35,409 nt of DNA. Origin: Kangiellaceae bacterium (lineage in GTDB: Bacteria > Pseudomonadota > Gammaproteobacteria > Enterobacterales > Kangiellaceae). Below are positions 2,734 to 17,903 of the stretch, in pieces. Position 1 is the first letter of the stretch. Each line of letters begins with the position of its first letter. The position numbers and the translations under genes were made by a program. Location of the stretch: contig JAPHTP010000110.1 in assembly GCA_026196875.1 (NCBI GenBank), positions 1 to 35,409 of the forward strand, given 5' to 3'. The notes under the pieces were generated by a model. It had not been told where the DNA came from. It saw only the letters and a program-made list of their open reading frames with translations, and did not search any database.

Positions 2734-4371
2734 ATGTGGTTATCTATTCGTCTTCCCCAGTTGCCTCTTGAATCTGTACTTGTCAACGTAAACAACCAAC
2801 AAAAAATAACTTATTCCGATAAAAGTATTCACTCAAATAAAACCACTCACTCAGGCAAAATAGCCAATTCAAATGAAAAGCTATCACCTGCTTGCGCAAT
2901 AATAGAAGATAATTTGGTTTATTGTTTAAATCAGGAAGCTCATCAACGAGGGGTTAGAATTGGCCAAAACGTTACCAGCGCATTTGCTTTTTGTGATCAC
3001 TTACAGTTAATTGAAAGAAATAAATATCAAGAAGCTCAGCAGTTACAAAACCTAGCTATTTTACTTTATCAAGTTTCATCTTCAATAAAAATTCAGCAAC
3101 CTCAATGGCGTGAAAACTTATCTATTCAACAGGCTTTACTCTCCTTAGAAATTGGTCGGAGCTTACAACTTTATCGAGGAATTAATAATTTAATTGATGT
3201 TGTTAGTCTGTTATTGATTGAAGAGCCAGTCGAGTTCCAATTAGGCATTGGTCATAGCGAAAAGAGTGCGCGCTTATTATCACACTACCCTTTGGCAAGC
3301 TCACTGCAATCAATTCCTAGTATTGAAGCAAAAGAGTTAGATAATAATCCCCAAGCAAAAATCGACTTTGAACTAGTTAATAAGCAGCTAGAAAAAATAC
3401 CCGTTGAGTTAATGGAGATCGATTATAAATCTATCGAAAAGATTCAGTCGGTTGGTTTCAAAACTATTGGAGAGCTAGCCCATCTCCCTGAGAGTGCAAT
3501 CAGAAAACGTTTTGGGGTTGATACTTATCGCTATCTTATGCAACTTTTTGCCAAATTAGCAGATCCTGAGGACTACTTTGTGCCACCAGAAAGTTTTTAC
3601 CAGAAAGTAGAATTTATTGACGTAGTTCATCATCGCCAGGGTCTGTTATTTCCAATCAAAAGACTAACTCAGCAGCTCTGCCAATTTTTGCGATTAAAGC
3701 AGAAAAGTTGCCAAAGTCTTTATTGGGAGTTATTTGACTCAGAAAAAAACACTATTGGTTTCGAAATACTTATTTCTGAAAGCCTAATAGACTCCAAAGT
3801 TTATATTGAACTAACTCAGCTAAACTTAGAACGCTATACCTTGCATGCCCCTATCGAAGCTATAGCTCTTACTGCAAATAAATTAAATGAGCTAACCAGT
3901 GAAAGCAAAAGTCTATTTGAAGATAGTGGAGACTTTAAACAAGATAATCATTTTATCCATAAAATCCGAGCCAAACTTGGCAATAACAGTTGTTATCAAA
4001 TAGCTCAACGACAAGAACATGTTCCTGAACTTGCCTCAAGCTATTCAATGGAAATAAACGACTCTAGACTTGTTCAAGAAGCAAGTCATCATAAATATAT
4101 TTCCTTATCGCTCGCCTTAGATATTAATCAACAAACCTCTCGGCCAGCTTGGCTATTTGAGAAGCCAAAACCAATTCAGTTTAACCAAAGAAAATTATTA
4201 TGGAAAGGAGAACTACAAATCATTTCCAGCCAAGAAAAAATTACCAGTTATTGGTGGAAGAAAAATGTAGCTAGAGATTATTTTTTAGCCGAGCATCAAG
4301 ATGGAACAATTTACTGGGTGTTTTTTGATCAAGAGAAAAGGCAATGGTTTTTACATGGGATTTATGGGTGA
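2734..4371 (+). CDS. imuB: Y-family polymerase-like mutasome protein ImuB
   Basis: 545 aa. The start MWLSIRLPQLPLE replaces the metal-binding Asp motif of active Y-family polymerases, as is characteristic of ImuB; the protein is expected to be a catalytically dead scaffold linking DnaE2, ImuA and the beta clamp. The helix-hairpin-helix-like region (KIQSVGFKTIGELAHLPESA, about 240-260) and the C-terminal block ending YWVFFDQEKRQWFLHGIYG are typical. The region where ImuB usually carries its clamp motif (QxDLF) reads SKSLFED here, lacking the Gln. An unusual polar insert (residues about 25-50, rich in S/K/N) follows the first strand. It begins 18 bp after imuA and ends 13 bp before dnaE2, so the three genes are probably one transcript. 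Confidence 0.92.
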   Translation: MWLSIRLPQLPLESVLVNVNNQQKITYSDKSIHSNKTTHSGKIANSNEKLSPACAIIEDNLVYCLNQEAHQRGVRIGQNVTSAFAFCDHLQLIERNKYQEAQQLQNLAILLYQVSSSIKIQQPQWRENLSIQQALLSLEIGRSLQLYRGINNLIDVVSLLLIEEPVEFQLGIGHSEKSARLLSHYPLASSLQSIPSIEAKELDNNPQAKIDFELVNKQLEKIPVELMEIDYKSIEKIQSVGFKTIGELAHLPESAIRKRFGVDTYRYLMQLFAKLADPEDYFVPPESFYQKVEFIDVVHHRQGLLFPIKRLTQQLCQFLRLKQKSCQSLYWELFDSEKNTIGFEILISESLIDSKVYIELTQLNLERYTLHAPIEAIALTANKLNELTSESKSLFEDSGDFKQDNHFIHKIRAKLGNNSCYQIAQRQEHVPELASSYSMEINDSRLVQEASHHKYISLSLALDINQQTSRPAWLFEKPKPIQFNQRKLLWKGELQIISSQEKITSYWWKKNVARDYFLAEHQDGTIYWVFFDQEKRQWFLHGIYG

Positions 4372-9731: not shown

Positions 9732-9974
9732 TTACTTATCAAGAATAGTTGAAAGCTCTGAAGAACATCTATCAACGAACTTGTTATATTGACCCAAAGT
9801 TAAAAACAATCGGTGAGTTTTAGGATCCGATTGGCGACCTTTATTGAGATTTTCACGTTGTTCATACCCACATCTGGTCAATTTCAGACTCGCTAAATCG
9901 ATCTCAATAAAATACCTTGTGTCTTTTTCCTTATTCTTTTCTTTATTCTTTTCTTTATTTTCTGACTTAGACAT
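9732..9974 (-). CDS. Small hypothetical protein with NKEK repeats, last gene of the ubiUV operon
   Basis: 80 aa, not recognised. Residues 5-17 are a charged low-complexity stretch of three NKEK-type units, encoded by a 12-bp tandem repeat. The rest (about 19-80) looks like a small globular domain: TRYFIEIDLASLKL, then RCGYEQRENLNKGRQ and a helical tail. Only one cysteine pair (Cys35, Cys70) stands out; there is no signal peptide or membrane segment. It begins 37 bp after ubiV on the same strand with no visible terminator between, so it is probably co-transcribed with the chorismate mutase-ubiU-ubiV genes. Codon use and the absence of a competing frame support a real gene, but function is unknown. 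Confidence 0.6.
   Translation of the reverse strand: MSKSENKEKNKEKNKEKDTRYFIEIDLASLKLTRCGYEQRENLNKGRQSDPKTHRLFLTLGQYNKFVDRCSSELSTILDK
9931..9954. repeat. 12-bp tandem repeat inside the small ORF
   Basis: Two exact copies of TTATTCTTTTCT (9931-9942, 9943-9954) with degenerate copies on each side. On the coding (minus) strand each unit encodes four residues (NKEK), so copy-number change would keep the frame and only alter the length of the charged N-terminus. Confidence 0.7.
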
Positions 9975-10011: not shown

Positions 10012-10926
10012 TTACTCAACAAAGTTCATTCCTTCAATTTGATTCCAATACCCGTTACAGAATAGATAATCGTTTTTGAGACCTTTTAATTGATGGCAAA
10101 CAGACTCATCGCTATCCCCTTTTATCTGGTCCGAAAATTGGTTTATCACATTTATTGTATCTTCATAGCCCACCGGAGAAATCCTTGCAACAGATACTTT
10201 TTTCTCGGCTAACTCACTTAATTGAGACAAAAGATTGGTAACTTTGGAAGACTGGGTCTGGATCCCATTTATTTGAGCAAAAGTATCCCCTTCTTGAGTT
10301 TTAACATGAATGCCCTGCTCATAGTCCAAGCACTTAAATTGGCAATCATCTTTAGCCAAACGATGGTGTCTGGCGGTAAAACAACGAGCCGAATAAGCTA
10401 AAGGCATCCTGCCAAACACTTGATATTCAATTTCTATTTCATCGGTACTTACATCACTTGTTAATGAATTTAAATCGTCTTTACCTAATTCTACAGGTAC
10501 TACCCAGCGCTTCATTCCTAAATTTTTAAACCGATTAAAGCTCGTTAAGTTATACAGATTGACTGCGCTGCCAACAACAAAAGGTAATCTATTTTCACTC
10601 AAAAGATAAACCGCAGCCATATCATTGGCTTCAACTAAGAAATCTTGTTGGGAACAGATCTTGTTCATATATTTAAATTCAGAAGCTGCTTCAATTAAGG
10701 TCATAGTAGAAAGCACAACCTGCTTTCCCTTAGAAGACAAGTGTGAGGCAATGTCCAACCAATCTTCAAATTTCATTTCTCGCCTTTTAGAGCAGACAGT
10801 TTCCCCTAAATAAATGATATCTATATTGGTACTTGCTATATCATGGTAGAAATCAAAATATTTTTGTTTTTGCCAAAAGTATGGATTTGCTGCTAACGAT
10901 AACTTCATTTTCTTAACTTGCGCCAT
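10012..10926 (-). CDS. ubiV: O2-independent ubiquinone biosynthesis protein UbiV (U32 family, [4Fe-4S])
   Basis: 304 aa from the ATG at 10926. Strong match to E. coli UbiV: IIYLGETVCSKRR, VVLSTMTLIEAASE, PVELGKDDL, RMPLAYSARCFTARHH, and the C-terminal CNGYWNQIEGM. The four cluster ligands are present (Cys45, Cys182, Cys195, Cys199). With UbiU it forms the complex that hydroxylates the ubiquinone ring without oxygen, using prephenate as oxygen donor in E. coli. The start lies 1 nt beyond the ubiU stop codon with GGAG 11 nt upstream, which suggests translational coupling; an upstream in-frame start at 10989 would overlap ubiU by 62 nt and is less likely. ATG 10908 is a shorter alternative that matches the E. 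coli N-terminus. Confidence 0.93.
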   Translation of the reverse strand: MAQVKKMKLSLAANPYFWQKQKYFDFYHDIASTNIDIIYLGETVCSKRREMKFEDWLDIASHLSSKGKQVVLSTMTLIEAASEFKYMNKICSQQDFLVEANDMAAVYLLSENRLPFVVGSAVNLYNLTSFNRFKNLGMKRWVVPVELGKDDLNSLTSDVSTDEIEIEYQVFGRMPLAYSARCFTARHHRLAKDDCQFKCLDYEQGIHVKTQEGDTFAQINGIQTQSSKVTNLLSQLSELAEKKVSVARISPVGYEDTINVINQFSDQIKGDSDESVCHQLKGLKNDYLFCNGYWNQIEGMNFVE

Positions 10927-10927
10927 A

Positions 10928-11917
10928 CTATTGCCAGCTCCGTTCATAAGCGCCAATAGTAGTTTGCGCGCCTTCAGCAAACTCAGCAAGTTGCTCTATT
11001 TGCTTGGGATCGACTCTTTGCTGTCTTATAGCAACATCATCAATTGCCTTACGCCACTGTTTTGTTACCGAAGCAATGTAGGCGGGACTTCTTTGGCGAC
11101 CTTCTACTTTAATGGCCGCAACACCGGCCTTTTTCAATTCAGGGAGAATACCCATGGTGTTTAAACTGGTAGGCTCTTCTAATGCGTGTTCTACCTTCCC
11201 TTCCACTTCAAATCGCCCTTTACAGAGGGTTGGATAACCGGCAGTTTCATCTTCCGTGAAGCGATCGATTAGCAAGTTATTTAGTCTTGATTCTAAAATA
11301 CTTCCTTTATCTTCCCATTTAACGTAGGCAGCCGGTGAACACACGCCTTGAGTATTCGGTGACTCTCCTGTCATATAAGAAGACAAGTAACATCGTCCTT
11401 CGGCCATAATACACAAACTTCCAAAACCAAATACTTCAATTTCCAACGGAGCATTTTTAGCTAGATATTCAACTTGCCGTAAAGATAGTACCCTAGGTAA
11501 CACAGCTCTTCTTATTTGAAACTCTCGATGATAAAACTTGAGTGCTCCCAGATTAGTTGCAGAAGCCTGCACAGAAAGATGTATAGGAAATTCGGAGTGT
11601 TTATTACGGATGTAGTCCATTACCCCGATGTCCGCAACGATTAGGGTATCAATACCCAACCCAATTGCGCTATCCACTGAATATGCCCAACGCTCCCATT
11701 TCGTCTGACGTGGGTAAGTATTAATAGCACAATAGACCTTACACTTATGCTGATGGGCATAATCAATTGCTTTCTTAATATCATCTTCAGAAAAGTTTAG
11801 GCCAGCAAAATGCCTTGCATTCGTTTCATTTTTGAGGCCTATGTAAACAGCGTTCGCGCCATTATCAACGGCCTTAATTAACGATTGATAATTCCCTGCC
11901 GGGCATACCAGCTCCAC
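10928..11917 (-). CDS. ubiU: O2-independent ubiquinone biosynthesis protein UbiU (U32 family, [4Fe-4S])
   Basis: 329 aa. The N-terminus MELVCPAGNYQSL and the cluster ligands Cys169, Cys176, Cys193 and Cys232 fall at the same residue numbers as in E. coli UbiU. The U32 signature is followed by the VEGRQRS block near residue 273. UbiU-UbiV is a soluble heterodimer for anaerobic ring hydroxylation in ubiquinone synthesis. The third E. coli partner, ubiT, is not in this window. The gene starts 2 nt after the stop of the chorismate mutase gene and ends 1 nt before ubiV, so all three are tightly coupled. Confidence 0.95.
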   Translation of the reverse strand: MELVCPAGNYQSLIKAVDNGANAVYIGLKNETNARHFAGLNFSEDDIKKAIDYAHQHKCKVYCAINTYPRQTKWERWAYSVDSAIGLGIDTLIVADIGVMDYIRNKHSEFPIHLSVQASATNLGALKFYHREFQIRRAVLPRVLSLRQVEYLAKNAPLEIEVFGFGSLCIMAEGRCYLSSYMTGESPNTQGVCSPAAYVKWEDKGSILESRLNNLLIDRFTEDETAGYPTLCKGRFEVEGKVEHALEEPTSLNTMGILPELKKAGVAAIKVEGRQRSPAYIASVTKQWRKAIDDVAIRQQRVDPKQIEQLAEFAEGAQTTIGAYERSWQ

Positions 11918-11919
11918 GG

Positions 11920-12225
11920 CTACTCCTCATGTTCGGAACGGTACAGTAGTTGTTGATTGAGGCCTGCACGCATAATCGCGTGAAAAATATTCGCTAGATC
12001 CACCGCTTGGTACTTGGTCGGATTGTTGGAAGTTTTCTCTTCTAAAATCCGTTTTTCTCTATTTCCGTCGTAAATAGGAAGTTGATTTTGACACTTAATT
12101 TCAGCGATCTCCTGAACACAAAGTGAGCGCTGCCTAAGTAATTCAATGAGTTGCTTGTCAATCTTATCTATATTACTTCGAATTTTATTGAGTTTCGCTA
12201 TAGATTCAGAGTTTTGTTCAGCCAT
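11920..12225 (-). CDS. AroQ-type chorismate mutase, first gene of the ubiUV operon
   Basis: 101 aa, all-helical stand-alone AroQ domain. Aligned by eye to the E. coli P-protein mutase domain, the active-site residues map as Arg16 (R11), Arg33 (R28), Lys44 (K39), Asp53 (D48), Arg56 (R51) and Gln91 (Q88); the Ser84 position appears to be Ala87. The expected reaction is chorismate to prephenate in the cytosol. Isochorismate pyruvate-lyases (PchB) share this fold, so a lyase-like activity is an alternative. Only 2 nt separate it from ubiU. Prephenate is the oxygen donor reported for E. coli UbiUV hydroxylation, so a co-expressed mutase would supply the co-substrate; this link is inference. The start has no strong ribosome-binding site. 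Confidence 0.88.
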   Translation of the reverse strand: MAEQNSESIAKLNKIRSNIDKIDKQLIELLRQRSLCVQEIAEIKCQNQLPIYDGNREKRILEEKTSNNPTKYQAVDLANIFHAIMRAGLNQQLLYRSEHEE

Positions 12226-12245
12226 ACTTAACCGTAATTTTAAAG

Positions 12246-12294
12246 AGGAGTTATTCTATGAGTTGAAGCTATACAAACTTTTGACTTGAGTCAA
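12246..12294 (-). promoter_or_regulatory. FNR/Anr-type class II promoter of the chorismate mutase-ubiU-ubiV operon
   Basis: TTGAC-TTGA-GTCAA (12281-12294) has perfect inverted 5-bp arms with a 4-bp spacer, one base per arm from the FNR consensus TTGAT-N4-ATCAA. On the minus strand a -10 element TAGAAT lies at 12258-12253, giving a predicted start near 12246. The box is then centred at -41.5, the standard class II activator position, and no good -35 hexamer is needed. The 5' leader would be about 20 nt. E. coli ubiUV is FNR-activated, which agrees with this reading. Confidence 0.65.
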
Positions 12295-12411: not shown

Positions 12412-15400
12412 TCATGATTCAGATATATCTTTTAAACTTGATAGTAAATTCTGAATTAACTTAATATCGAATGAAGAAACCGCTTGTTCAAGCTTTTGAG
12501 CTATGTTTTCTAACGCTTGGTCACTTTCTAGTTTTGCTATCTCATCAAGCGTAACTGCAAACTCCCCTATTTCGCTAATGTTATTTGACTTAGTAAGCCT
12601 ATTCAAAACATCAGAATATTCACTTCTTAATTTTAGCTTGGTGAGCTTTGCAACATGAGCAACTTCAGTCAATTCTATCTCATCTGGAGCAGATTTAATG
12701 TCTTGAAAAGGTAGGTGTTTCTTAAGCTCGCTGATTAAGTCTTTTCTAAGTACCGGTTTTCTTAAATAACCTAGGAAGTTTTCTCGCCGACGCTTTTCAT
12801 AATCATCCCTCATTACGGATGCCGTCAGCGCGACAATTTTCATTTGCGGTTGTTCTTTCTTAATAATCTCAGAAGCTTGATATCCATCCATTTCAGGCAT
12901 CCGAATATCCATGACTATTAAATCGGGAGAATTTTCTCTAGCTTTCTCAACCGCTTCTTTTCCATTACAAGCTTCCTCAATCTCAATGTTGAGTTCTCTA
13001 AATATTTCTTTAAGCAAATTTCTATTGTCACTTATATCGTCGACTATCAAGACTTTAGCTCCAAGAAAATCTGCTTTCTGTACTTCCGCCACAGTGTTAG
13101 ATACTAAGTTTGAATCACTTATGCTCGCCACTTCTACATCGTCAAAAATTAAGGCAAATCGGCTTCCTTTTCCAACATCACTTTCAACCAGAATTTCTCC
13201 TCCCATAAGTTCTGTTAGTCTTCGGCTAATTGTTAAGCCTAAACCAGTCCCACCGAACTTCCTAACACTCTGACCTTCCTGTTGTTTAAAACTTTCAAAA
13301 ATTGAATTGATTTCTGCTTTTGCAATTCCTATCCCGGAATCCTCTACTTCTATTCTTAATGCAATAGATTGACTACTCAATTCTTGGCTAGTAACTGCTG
13401 CTCGTAATACCACACCGCCCTTGTCAGTAAATTTAACCGCATTACCCACCAAATTAAATAAAACCTGCCTTATTCTTACTCCATCCAGTAATAACACGCC
13501 TGGAATATTCTCATCAACTTCTAACTTTAAATCTAAATCCTTTCCCTTAATTGTCATAGTGAATACATTGGCGATATCTTCCAGAATATCAACCAAATCA
13601 ACTGGCTTTTTAACAATATTTAGCTTACCTGCTTCAATTTTTGATAAGTCAAGAATATCGTTAATCAGCATTAACAAATTATTTCCAGCAGAACGTATAG
13701 TTTTAACAAACCCACTTAGTTTATCGCCTTTGACTTGCTCTTGAAGTAGCTCGGTAAAACCAATAATCGCATTCATTGGAGTTCTGATCTCATGACTCAT
13801 ATTGGCTAAGAATTCAGACTTTGCCTTATTTGCAAGCTCTGCAGCTTCTTTGGCTTCTTGAAGCTCATACTCCATTTTAACTCTATCATCCATATCAACA
13901 ATAATATTGAGCTCGGCTTCTTTCTGTCTGAAATTTACTGGTAATATCGATACCAGTCCTTTAAACGATTCACCATTGGCTCTGAAAATTGTCGATATAT
14001 TTTCGCTCGATGACTCCTTAACTAAACCGTGGGCCAAGTGATTATTCTTGTTTCTGTCTGATTGCTCATAAAACTGCAAAGTATTGACACTTTCTATATT
14101 TTCGCTATCAATCTGGAGTGCATATAAGGCCGAGGGATTTGCCATTAGCAAGCTATTATCAAGTGGATCGGAAACGAAAATGGCGATCGGAATTCTATCG
14201 ATTAATGTAGATAAGTTCTGCTCACTTTGTCTAAGCGACTCCTGAATTCTAGAGCGAAGATCTACCTCTGCTTTTAATTTTCTATTTGAATAGAGGATTA
14301 ATGCCAAGATCAATAGCGAAGCAATACTGACAATTATCAACATACGATAATCTGTTTTAACCAGAAATCCTTTCTTACCCCATTTTGATATGTATGCCTG
14401 CTTTTCTCGTGTGCTTACATTTGCTAGCACTTTATTAATAATCGAAACAAACTGTTTATTTTTGTCAGTTAATACGAAAGTCAAAGATGTAGTAAACTCT
14501 GTTCTTCCAACCACCTTTAGATTATCGTAGCCATTTACATTTATTTGGTAATTGGCTAAGGGAAGTAAGCAAATAACGATATCTGTTTCGCCATTCGACA
14601 ACTTACGAAGACCATCATTAGTGGTAGTTACTAAGTCGAATTCTTTATTAGGGTAAAGTCGTTGTAATTCGATACTGGCTTGATAATCTCTTAATAAAGT
14701 AATTCTCTTATCTATTACCTGTGAAATATCATCCACATAACCTTCTATGTCTTTGGCAACCATAACAAAAGGAGTGCTTAAATATTTATTACTTCTTACA
14801 ACAGGAAAGTCATACCTAAAAGTTGAAGATGCGGAAGAGAAGTCGATCTTTTCTTCTTGCAATAATTCGATAGTTTCATCCCACGAAGAAGTGTTTACTA
14901 CTTCTACCTTAATACTCAACATCTCTTCTATCATCTCGACAAATTCGGAAACAATTCCGATGTAATTTCCTTTACTGTCGACACCTTCAAATGGAAGCCA
15001 GTCGGGGTCACCGGCGAAAACAAGCTTATTATTCCTACCGAGCCATCTAACTTCATCAACAGTCAGCTTTATTTGCTTACTGATTAATTCACTCGGCAAT
15101 ATATTCCACTTTTTTAGTAGCGCTTCTTTTTCCACATTGGTTACAGAAGCAATACCAAGATTTATAATTCCCAATAATTGAGGGATTTCTTTACGCACTG
15201 CAATGTGGATTGGATTTACAGCATCACCTTCAAGCCCTTTAAATGCGACAATATCTGTGATTTGTTGTCGCATCAGGATGTAGCTGATCACTTCATAAGA
15301 GTCGAATAGAAGATCCGCCTTTCTACTATTAACCAGGTCGACTCCCTCTTGAATTCTCTTAACATAGATTATCTCTAAGTTTGGATAGAGTTCCCTGATT

Positions 15401-16770
15401 TTCTCCGCCAAGCCATAACCCTCAGTTAATACTAGAGTTAACCCGCCAAAGTCCGTGTAATCAGTTAGTTCTAGGCTCTTGTGGTAAAAAAAACGATTCT
15501 GTGAGCGATAATAAGGAAGGGAAAAGTCGAGTTTTTTCTCTCTTTCTTTGTTGCGGTAAGCAGCAATTAAAATATCATTTTTCTGATCATAGACACTTTG
15601 CAGGGTTTCCTCCCAAAGTTTAGGCGTAAACTCAAACTTGAGCCCTGTTTTTCCCCCCACAAGTTCAATAAAATCTTTTGAAAACCCTTCATAATTATTA
15701 TTTTCATCTACAAATTCGAAAGGTTCCCAATCGGAATCACTTGCAACTTTAACTATCGGATTTTTGTTTACCCACTCTATTTGTTGCTGATTCAATGCTA
15801 CTTGTAACAAAGTCGCTTCAAAAACGAAATCTCTATCTATCTTTGCCGAATCGGACAGTCCCATTCGGACATAGTCTTCCGCAACTTTTTTAAGCCGGTC
15901 AAAATCAATTGAACCGAGCTGAACAAAATCGGCAATTATATAATCTCTAGTTGCATTAGCTTCGAACTTTAGATGCTCGTACGAGAGATTAGGCGTATAT
16001 TTGGCTCTAATAATCTCTATTAGTTCATCTGGATTTTTTAATGCGTAATCCCAGCCTTTTAGGACCGCACGCTTTACTTTCTCCACCCTTAGCGGATTTT
16101 TCTCAACCTCATGTTTTGTTGTAAACAAGTTATCGCCATAAAAATCCACGCCATAGTTTTGCGGATTAATTATATTGAACTCAACTCCCATTTGTTTAAA
16201 CATGAAAGGTTGTGAAGTAGCATAAACTGAATAAACGTCAACCTCTCCATCTAAAAATTTCCCGCGCGTATTTTGATCAAATTTAACAACGTTAATTCCG
16301 TCAGTGCCGCCCAAGGTTTTTAGTAAGAGAGAGTTAAGTGAAGCGTCTCCACGATTGTCAGTGTTAAATGCAACCGTTTTACCTATCATTTCAAAAGGAC
16401 TAATAATACCCGAGGATTTATGGGATACGAAAACTAAAGGTGAACGTTGAAAAATCTGAGCCACCAAAACAACGGGATAACCGCTGGTATGATAGTTAAG
16501 CAAAGATATATCGGATACACCATACTCCGCATTCCCGTTGAGCACAGAGTCCATGTAATTCTTCCCAGGCTGCTTTTCGAGCAGCCTGACTTTAAGCCCT
16601 TCCTGTTCAAAAAATCCCTTTTCAATCGCTGCATAATAACCAGCGAATTGAAAGCTATGCATCCACTTAAATTGAATATTAATAGTTTCAAGAGAGTCAT
16701 CTTGCTCAGCCCTCAAACTAGGGGACAAGATTAAAAAAAGAGCCAATGATATAGAAACTAATTGCTTCAT
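12412..16770 (-). CDS. Giant hybrid sensor histidine kinase: NMT1-like + two SBP_bac_3 sensors, PAS, HisKA, HATPase, REC
   Basis: 1452 aa from the ATG at 16770. Order: signal peptide (1-21, cut near SLRAEQ); NMT1/THI5-like binding module (about 25-230, [20 protein letters not shown]); two amino-acid-type SBP_bac_3 modules (about 335-560 and 578-795, each starting with a DxDWxPFE motif); membrane segment (810-830); PAS (about 860-960); HisKA with His993 in [10 protein letters not shown]; HATPase with N, G1 (DSGIGIA) and G2 (GGTGLGL) boxes; receiver with Asp1288 in [11 protein letters not shown]; and a helical C-terminal region (1355-1452) that may be a degenerate Hpt-like output. The architecture is BvgS/EvgS-like with an added NMT1 sensor, so it probably binds a periplasmic amine or thiamine-precursor-like ligand. 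It follows the HD-GYP regulator by 7 bp. An in-frame TTG at 16785 overlaps that gene and is less likely. Confidence 0.92.
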
Positions 16771-16777
16771 TTTAGAT

Positions 16778-17836
16778 CTAAGCAATTTTAGCTATTTCAA
16801 TAAATTCAGGTAGGTGATCAGTGAATATTTCTACAAGGACGGGATCGAATTGAGTCTCAGAATGTTGTTTTACATATTCAACAGCTTCATCGATTCCCCA
16901 CGCTTCCTTGTAGCGCCTTTTATGGGTAAGTGCATCGAAAACATCAGCTAACGCCACTATGCGTCCGTAGATATGAATGTCGTTACCTTTAAGGCCTTTA
17001 GGGTAACCAGAACCATCCCATTTTTCGTGATGCTGAGTGGCAATTATTGACGCTGCTCGCAATAATTTTCGATGAGAATATTTGAGAAACTCCTCCGCTT
17101 TCTCGGCATGTGTTTTCATTATTGCAAATTCAGCTTCGGTCAGTTTACCGGGTTTATGGAGGATCTCCTTTGGTATTGCGATTTTGCCTATGTCGTGCAT
17201 TGGAGCGGCGTAGTAAACGATCATTTCATCTTCTTCACTCAATGACTCACTATAATGGGCCAACAACTTAGAGTGTTCCGCCACTCGCCGGATATGCTGC
17301 CCTGTTTCATCAGAAGTACTTTCCATCATTTCCATTAACGCATAGATCATTTCCTTCTGATTTTCTTCTAACTCTTGTTTTAGCCGTTGACTCTGAAGTT
17401 TTGTTTTAACTTCCAGTTGTTCATTAGCCTGCCTTAAGAGCTCTCTCGAGTGATAGAGGTCAACATGAGTTCTAACTCGGGCTAACAACTCTCCAGGTTG
17501 GAAAGGTTTGATTACATAATCGACTGCGCCTAACTCAAACGCTTTTTCAAGAGAATCAATATCAGATTTTGCAGTAAGAAAGATAATGGGAGTTTCTCTA
17601 TTTTTCTTCTTTTCTTTAATTTGTTTGCATACTTCGAAACCATCTAGCATTGGCATCATTACATCTAACAAAATCAGGTCAAATTTTTCATCTTCAATCA
17701 AATTAAGCGCTTTGATCCCATCAGTCGCAAATGAAAATTGATAATTTTCTTCTCGGAGAATATTCATGGCTAGTTGAATATTATCTGTGACATCATCAAC
17801 AATGAGGATCTTGATGTCCTGCGGTACGGTCAACAT
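16778..17836 (-). CDS. Response regulator with HD-GYP phosphodiesterase domain
   Basis: 352 aa from the ATG at 17836. Receiver (about 7-122) with Asp58 in [11 protein letters not shown] and the conserved Lys110 of VIKPF; a coiled linker rich in K/E/Q (about 130-165); HD-GYP (about 168-350) with HD at 214-215, HH at 269-270 and GYP at 277-279, all intact. Expected to be a phosphorylation-controlled c-di-GMP phosphodiesterase. It is transcribed first, 7 bp ahead of the hybrid kinase, making that kinase its likely partner. An AGGAG lies 12 nt before the ATG; the TTG at 17848 would abut the same AGGAG and is unlikely. It shares the HD-GYP core with the protein at 110-1660 but lacks DUF3369. Confidence 0.93.
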
Positions 17837-17903
17837 GGCTACTATCAACTCCTGAACTAGGATCTTTAAAAAGATAAAGACTCGCGCGATATTAATCTTA
17901 AGC

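Follow-up and report, generated by a model that had tools for sequence, protein, structure and literature searches.

A chorismate mutase gene behind a predicted FNR-type promoter at the head of a ubiUV operon in Kangiellaceae

Could a bacterium that carries UbiU and UbiV encode, in the same operon, its own supply of the prephenate that these proteins are reported to consume, and could low oxygen switch on both together? This question is raised by a stretch of 35,409 nucleotides from a Kangiellaceae bacterium (contig JAPHTP010000110.1, hereafter ‘the window’; its genome is denoted G000), in which an initial annotation had proposed an operon of a chorismate mutase (CM) gene, ubiU and ubiV under a class II FNR promoter. 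The available text of a 2024 review (PMC11574389, citing Ferizhendi et al., PNAS 2024) gives prephenate as the oxygen donor for UbiUV, and that of a study on TrhP and RlhA, two U32 proteins, reports that their products depend on prephenate in E. coli (PMC6599085); the donor step in the mechanism considered here rests on this review together with the dependence of TrhP on prephenate. The features of the locus are as follows.

12281-12294, no strand assigned: FNR-type box TTGACTTGAGTCAA (TTGACTCAAGTCAA on the minus strand), the only exact match in the window
12253-12258, minus strand: predicted -10 element TAGAAT, 22 nt from the FNR-type box
12246, minus strand: predicted transcription start, derived from the -10 element, with the box centre at -41.5
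11920-12225, minus strand: aroQ, stand-alone type II chorismate mutase of 101 aa (PF01817, 69 bits, cut-off 27; CM-domain alignment; matches to CM structures in the PDB)
10928-11917, minus strand: ubiU, with a GTG start 2 nt past the aroQ stop codon (NF047963, 529 bits, cut-off 440)
10012-10908, minus strand: ubiV, from its HMM-supported start (NF047965, 367 bits, cut-off 275)

Promoter and gene order of the unit

Read along the minus strand, the unit runs from the FNR-type box and the -10 element through aroQ and ubiU to ubiV. The open reading frames together with the PF01817 and NF047963 profiles confirmed that a stand-alone AroQ chorismate mutase is the first gene and lies 2 nt from ubiU, and UbiU and UbiV, each above the cut-off of its model, are adjacent. 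ubiV most likely starts at 10908; the listed frame reaches 10989, and the NF047965 match begins at residue 29 of this long ORF. An 80-aa Lys/Glu-rich ORF that lies 37 nt past ubiV (9732-9974, minus strand) has no Pfam or NCBIfam match and was dropped as a candidate operon member; among the loci compared, it matched its own genome only. On the other side of the promoter, the window encodes a large hybrid sensor kinase (12412-17848, minus strand; 1457 aa, start uncertain), and the response regulator preceding it resembles, below the cut-off, a c-di-GMP phosphodiesterase of the NosR family. Past the kinase region come sucCD and sdh genes.

A 10/10 match to TTGAYNNNNRTCAA was observed once in the 35,409 bases, against 0.23 expected by an independent-base estimate. 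Since matches at two mismatches show no excess (17 observed, 18.8 expected), the perfect site alone stands out in the window. When the start is placed 7 nt past TAGAAT, the centre of the TTGAC-N4-GTCAA box falls at -41.5 relative to this predicted start, with 22 nt between box and TAGAAT, and the position given in the initial annotation proved exact. The assignment to class II FNR geometry, that is, a palindromic box near -41.5 plus a -10 element with no need of a -35, also held, and this arrangement is conserved in the family. The aroQ promoter is absent from the output of a generic sigma-70 scan, as expected where a class II box replaces the -35 element.

Within the family, a 10/10 FNR box precedes ubiU or aroQ-ubiU in 14 of 15 genomes (the exception is G019), while the sequence between box and -10 element varies from locus to locus. 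A -10 element matching in at least five of six positions at a gap of 21 or 22 nt follows about 1% of random positions; it was found at all 13 ubi boxes examined, as against 2 of 24 tests on other family boxes (12 boxes, read in both directions, in 467 kb of family DNA), a comparison in which the loci tested are relatives and the gap was fixed only after the box-to-(-10) spacings had been seen. As box and -10 gap are conserved across the family, we rejected a chance occurrence of the box, and as far as sequence can tell, the FNR class II promoter of aroQ-ubiUV is real.

Is FNR the protein that would act at this site? Half-sites of the TTGAC-N4-GTCAA type are read by several CRP/FNR-family members, and G000 encodes three proteins with a Crp-type helix, so that the activator might be another protein of this family (of the Dnr, Crp or NO-responsive type) and the signal something other than oxygen itself. 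However, the FNR cysteines occur in only one of the three proteins; the genome's own FNR (PRK11161, 344.7 bits, cut-off 228) keeps all four Cys positions when aligned to the FNR structure 5cvr, which we take to be the Aliivibrio protein. The family boxes, moreover, vary between TTGAT and TTGAC. Elsewhere, FNR has been demonstrated to activate ubiUV in E. coli, according to the available text of PMC10470549, and candidate FNR sites are predicted for 1362 of 1566 ubiTUV triplets of Pseudomonadota (87%), according to that of PMC11707229. We thus regard a different activator as very unlikely. UbiT, an SCP2 protein, is likewise encoded in G000, on another contig (C90) than ubiUV (NF047962, 99.8 bits, cut-off 46.9), and its gene has a 9/10 FNR box with a 20-nt gap to TCTAAT.

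Linkage of aroQ to ubiU across the family

The named members of the family are Aliikangiella and Kangiella. Among 40 family genomes, 15 carry ubiV, all of them together with ubiU, and in 12 of these genomes aroQ is the gene immediately 5' of ubiU (G000, G002, G005, G018, G026, G029, G030, G031, G032, G034, G036 and G063), with a gap of 1-8 nt at the 11 loci measured. The same aroQ-ubiU-ubiV order, with a 2-nt gap, a 10/10 box and TATAAT, is present in the metagenome-assembled genome HyVt-500 (labelled Aeromonadales). The possibility that the link is confined to one genome was rejected on these grounds, and the neighbourhood suggested for comparison by the initial annotation is found in most ubiU-bearing relatives. 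By comparison, flanks of up to 1.5 kb on each side of ubiU contained no CM gene at any of 15 loci sampled from the order's other families.

The three remaining family genomes differ among themselves. G001 and G019 have no aroQ at ubiUV. In G003, aroQ is located on a separate contig behind a 9/10 box (gap 22, with a weak -10 element matching in 4/6 positions), and the ubiU unit has its own 10/10 box (gap 21).

Co-occurrence can be followed within a Kangiella-like genus of 20 genomes. Eight of these carry ubiV, and all eight have aroQ before ubiU. Among the 12 without ubiV, six have a long-frame CM only and six have a further stand-alone CM, which in trees groups with the genus's second, unlinked CM and apart from the ubiU-linked AroQs (support 97/100 for three of the six). 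Hence, the ubiU-type aroQ is present in 8/8 genomes with ubiV versus 0/12 without, counts to which no formal probability can be attached, since the genomes are relatives and not independent. The second stand-alone CM, unlinked to ubiUV, lies some 4 kb away from the long-frame CM in seven genomes of this genus (e.g. L138, from G025, and L123), and the long-frame CM in L138 looks by eye like pheA.

Such clustering could be historical, a chance placement of aroQ ahead of ubiU in an ancestor that persisted without a common function, for gene order persists among relatives and the exact aroQ-ubiU order is limited, HyVt-500 aside, to one family. Yet aroQ and ubiUV are jointly present or jointly absent in the Kangiella-like genus, the separated aroQ and ubiU units of G003 each have an FNR-type box, and other families have CM-family genes next to ubiT or ubiUV in differing arrangements (see below). 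A purely historical cluster therefore seems highly improbable to us. A functional link is the reading that we prefer: in a group of marine bacteria, the anaerobic ubiquinone operon is headed by an FNR-type box and by the gene of a small enzyme that should make prephenate.

AroQ and its possible roles

The catalytic positions of AroQ are kept in alignment with CM domains (R16, R33, K44, D53, R56, E57 and Q92, which we take to correspond to R11, R28, K39, D48, R51, E52 and Q88 of the E. coli CM), and Q92 is invariant among eleven aligned AroQ proteins of the family. The view that AroQ has the catalytic residues of a mutase thus stands at all positions compared except the Ser84 equivalent, which is Gly88. 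The best PDB matches of the AroQ family profile (5gmu, 5j6f, 3nvt and 2d8d) come from the CM domains of AroA(G)/DAHPS-CM proteins, with which AroQ has in common the PF01817 fold family and the residues of the catalytic site; it differs from these proteins in standing alone and in its close coupling to ubiU. AroQ matched 20 NCBIfam models, all of them below the cut-off (the best was TIGR01805, with 58.4 bits against a cut-off of 71.2), and we thus assign the protein to no named subgroup.

In none of three trees do the ubiU-linked AroQs group as one clade, and the sequence trees thus lend no support to a single origin. As to a possible origin of AroQ as a split-off TyrA domain, two of the trees place AroQ apart from the CM domains of family TyrA, though on few columns and long branches. 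From the trees we omitted G019_C23 (wrong frame) and three partial rows from the order; one tree also lacked t_G100 and 19 of the 29 class CM rows, and another used only six PheA rows. Outside the family, the matches listed for 369 genomes, which did not display the weaker CM genes linked to ubiT, include one frame shorter than 170 aa, a 102-aa CM in G094 that by eye sits between serC- and tyrA-like genes.

What else might a stand-alone mutase do in these bacteria? TyrA was searched with the model of the bifunctional CM/prephenate dehydrogenase (T-protein) as well as with PF02153, as the latter alone recovers only part of the T-protein. In G000, TyrA matches the T-protein model only from position 84, its CM domain having been lost, and in five genomes (G000, G002, G004, G005 and G006) the match starts at position 78-88 instead of 2-5. 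These five are among the six Aliikangiella-group genomes that have TyrA, and four of the five carry a ubiU-type aroQ; the fused CM-TyrA is kept in 13 other family genomes. In A. marina (G004), aroQ is present and both ubiU and ubiV are absent; the gene follows sucD- and GNAT-like genes (as judged by eye), and no match to TTGA-N6-TCAA was found in the 1.4 kb before it. In G000 itself, TyrA without its N-terminal CM domain is encoded between aroA- and aroC-like genes as judged by eye (C115; L145:6259-7227). A further CM is part of a CM-PDT-DAHPS fusion, a 704-aa frame made up of CM, prephenate dehydratase and a B. subtilis-type DAHP synthase (C70; L085:3283-5397), and a third CM match lies in a 222-aa frame, so that aroQ would not be the sole source of prephenate. 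CM frames of 694-716 aa were also found in five other family genomes.

The loss of the CM domain from TyrA and the aroQ of A. marina without ubiUV point to a second job for aroQ in Aliikangiella, where AroQ likely also feeds tyrosine synthesis. A stronger alternative is that tyrosine synthesis is the main task of AroQ, which would replace the lost domain of TyrA, and that aroQ sits in the ubiUV operon incidentally or for the sake of shared regulation only. G001 and G019, which have ubiUV without aroQ and retain CM-TyrA, fit this idea, as do the aroQ-bearing genomes with a CM-less TyrA and the aroQ kept by A. marina in the absence of ubiUV. However, no T-protein TyrA was matched in any of the 20 Kangiella-like genomes (a prephenate dehydrogenase match occurs in G033 only), yet aroQ tracks ubiUV throughout that genus; G018 has both CM-TyrA and aroQ-ubiU; and in G006, a genome that is 82% complete, TyrA is without its CM domain and no CM was found at all. 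A promoter with an FNR site only would, in addition, be a poor fit for an amino-acid gene needed under all conditions. The tyrosine job cannot explain the Kangiella-like genus or G018, and we consider it unlikely to be the principal role of AroQ. Conversely, an exclusive role with UbiUV is argued against by the three of 15 family ubiUV genomes without adjacent aroQ, by the A. marina aroQ without ubiUV and by the loss of the CM domain from TyrA.

We think it probable that an FNR-switched chorismate mutase supplies prephenate to UbiUV. At low oxygen, active FNR would bind at 12281-12294 and turn on aroQ-ubiU-ubiV from a class II promoter with its start near 12246. AroQ, made from the same transcription unit as UbiUV, would convert chorismate into prephenate, and UbiU-UbiV, together with the UbiT encoded elsewhere, would use prephenate as the oxygen donor for the O2-independent ring hydroxylation of ubiquinone precursors. 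In doing so, AroQ would compete with UbiC for chorismate. The box, its geometry, the gene order, the conservation in the family, the catalytic residues and the presence of FNR and UbiT are observed in the sequences, and from them we infer binding by FNR, a response to oxygen, CM activity and the use of AroQ-made prephenate by UbiUV. If this proposal is true, an FNR-switched, dedicated prephenate-making gene within the operon would give the donor independent support from genetics and would offer a clean test system.

CM-family genes near ubiTUV beyond the family and comparison with known systems

A wider draw from the class comprised 369 genomes, of which 92 have UbiU, 91 of them besides the window's genome. 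Flanks of up to ~9.5 kb on each side of ubiU were covered in 60 of the 91 and of up to 2.5 kb in the other 31, less at contig ends. A CM-family ORF was found near ubiU in six genomes (G210, G103, G243, G296, G349 and G100), the proteins of which all pass the PF01817 cut-off, and no CM was present within the flanks covered in the other 85. Like the three family genomes without adjacent aroQ and all 15 loci sampled from the order's other families, these 85 genomes show ubiU with no CM in the flanks covered, and the partnership with aroQ is therefore not required by ubiUV.

The arrangements in the six genomes differ from that in the window. Four of them (G103, G243, G296 and G349) have the CM gene and ubiT head-to-head, and an FNR box matching in 9/10 or 10/10 positions separates the two starts. 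The CM gene of G210 comes after ubiT, with the FNR box placed between ubiT and ubiU. The CM of G100 lacks the beginning of the domain, and the two stretches inspected there showed no FNR box. G103, G243 and G349 belong to one taxonomic order. Among 19 genomes of this order, 12 have a CM-family ORF beside ubiT (loci L335-L346), head-to-head in 11 and in the same direction in L346, and boxes near these loci match in 10/10 positions in eight cases and in 9/10 in four. The active-site Gln/Glu is replaced in 11 of these 12 ubiT-linked CMs, whereas R, R, K, R and E are kept in all 12, and two CMs of the order that are not linked to ubiT keep Gln. Of the three class hits outside this order, G210 has a gap at the catalytic Gln position; in G296, a Gln can be aligned there only if an insertion of 7 columns is bridged; and the CM of G100 keeps the Gln and lacks the first Arg. 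As the alignment is short at the C-terminus, the apparent loss of Gln/Glu from ubiT-linked CMs is provisional.

Two further loci may be described here. L262 (619-5714) contains a cluster resembling, by eye, ubiD-ubiX-ubiU-ubiV, accompanied by a head-to-head pair of ubiT and a CM-family gene; its FNR-like boxes are at positions 3549 and 1075. In L261 (1-999), a ubiT-linked CM-family gene directly precedes a gene that by eye is NorB-like (nitric oxide reductase).

We tentatively suggest, as a possibility that we hold with less than even confidence, that UbiTUV has a CM-family protein as a recurring accessory partner, in two forms: an intact mutase that would make prephenate on site, and a ubiT-side protein with an Arg/Lys pocket, mostly without Gln/Glu, that may bind, sense or pass prephenate to UbiUV. 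The Gln-less CM relatives beside ubiT would in that case hint at a prephenate-binding component of the UbiTUV pathway.

FNR control of ubiUV has already been published, and a CM gene in a ubiUV operon is apparently unreported, as we found no paper describing one. In the open-licence PMC literature, no report was found of a CM partner of UbiUV or UbiT or of a link between Aliikangiella and chorismate, and the available part of PMC6747719 has no mention of mutase, prephenate or fnr.

The nearest known system is the FNR-activated ubiUV and ubiT of E. coli, with which the Kangiellaceae locus has in common the ubiU-ubiV order, the upstream FNR-type site and the presence of UbiT and FNR in the genome. 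The E. coli promoter, as described in the available text of PMC10470549, has no aroQ, and its F1 site is TTGATTTAAGGCAG, whereas in the Kangiellaceae locus a perfectly palindromic site precedes aroQ. TrhP and RlhA are, like UbiUV, U32 proteins; according to the available text of PMC6599085, they act on RNA, and their prephenate comes from the CMs of PheA and TyrA, in contrast to the supply from a gene of the same operon that we propose for UbiUV.
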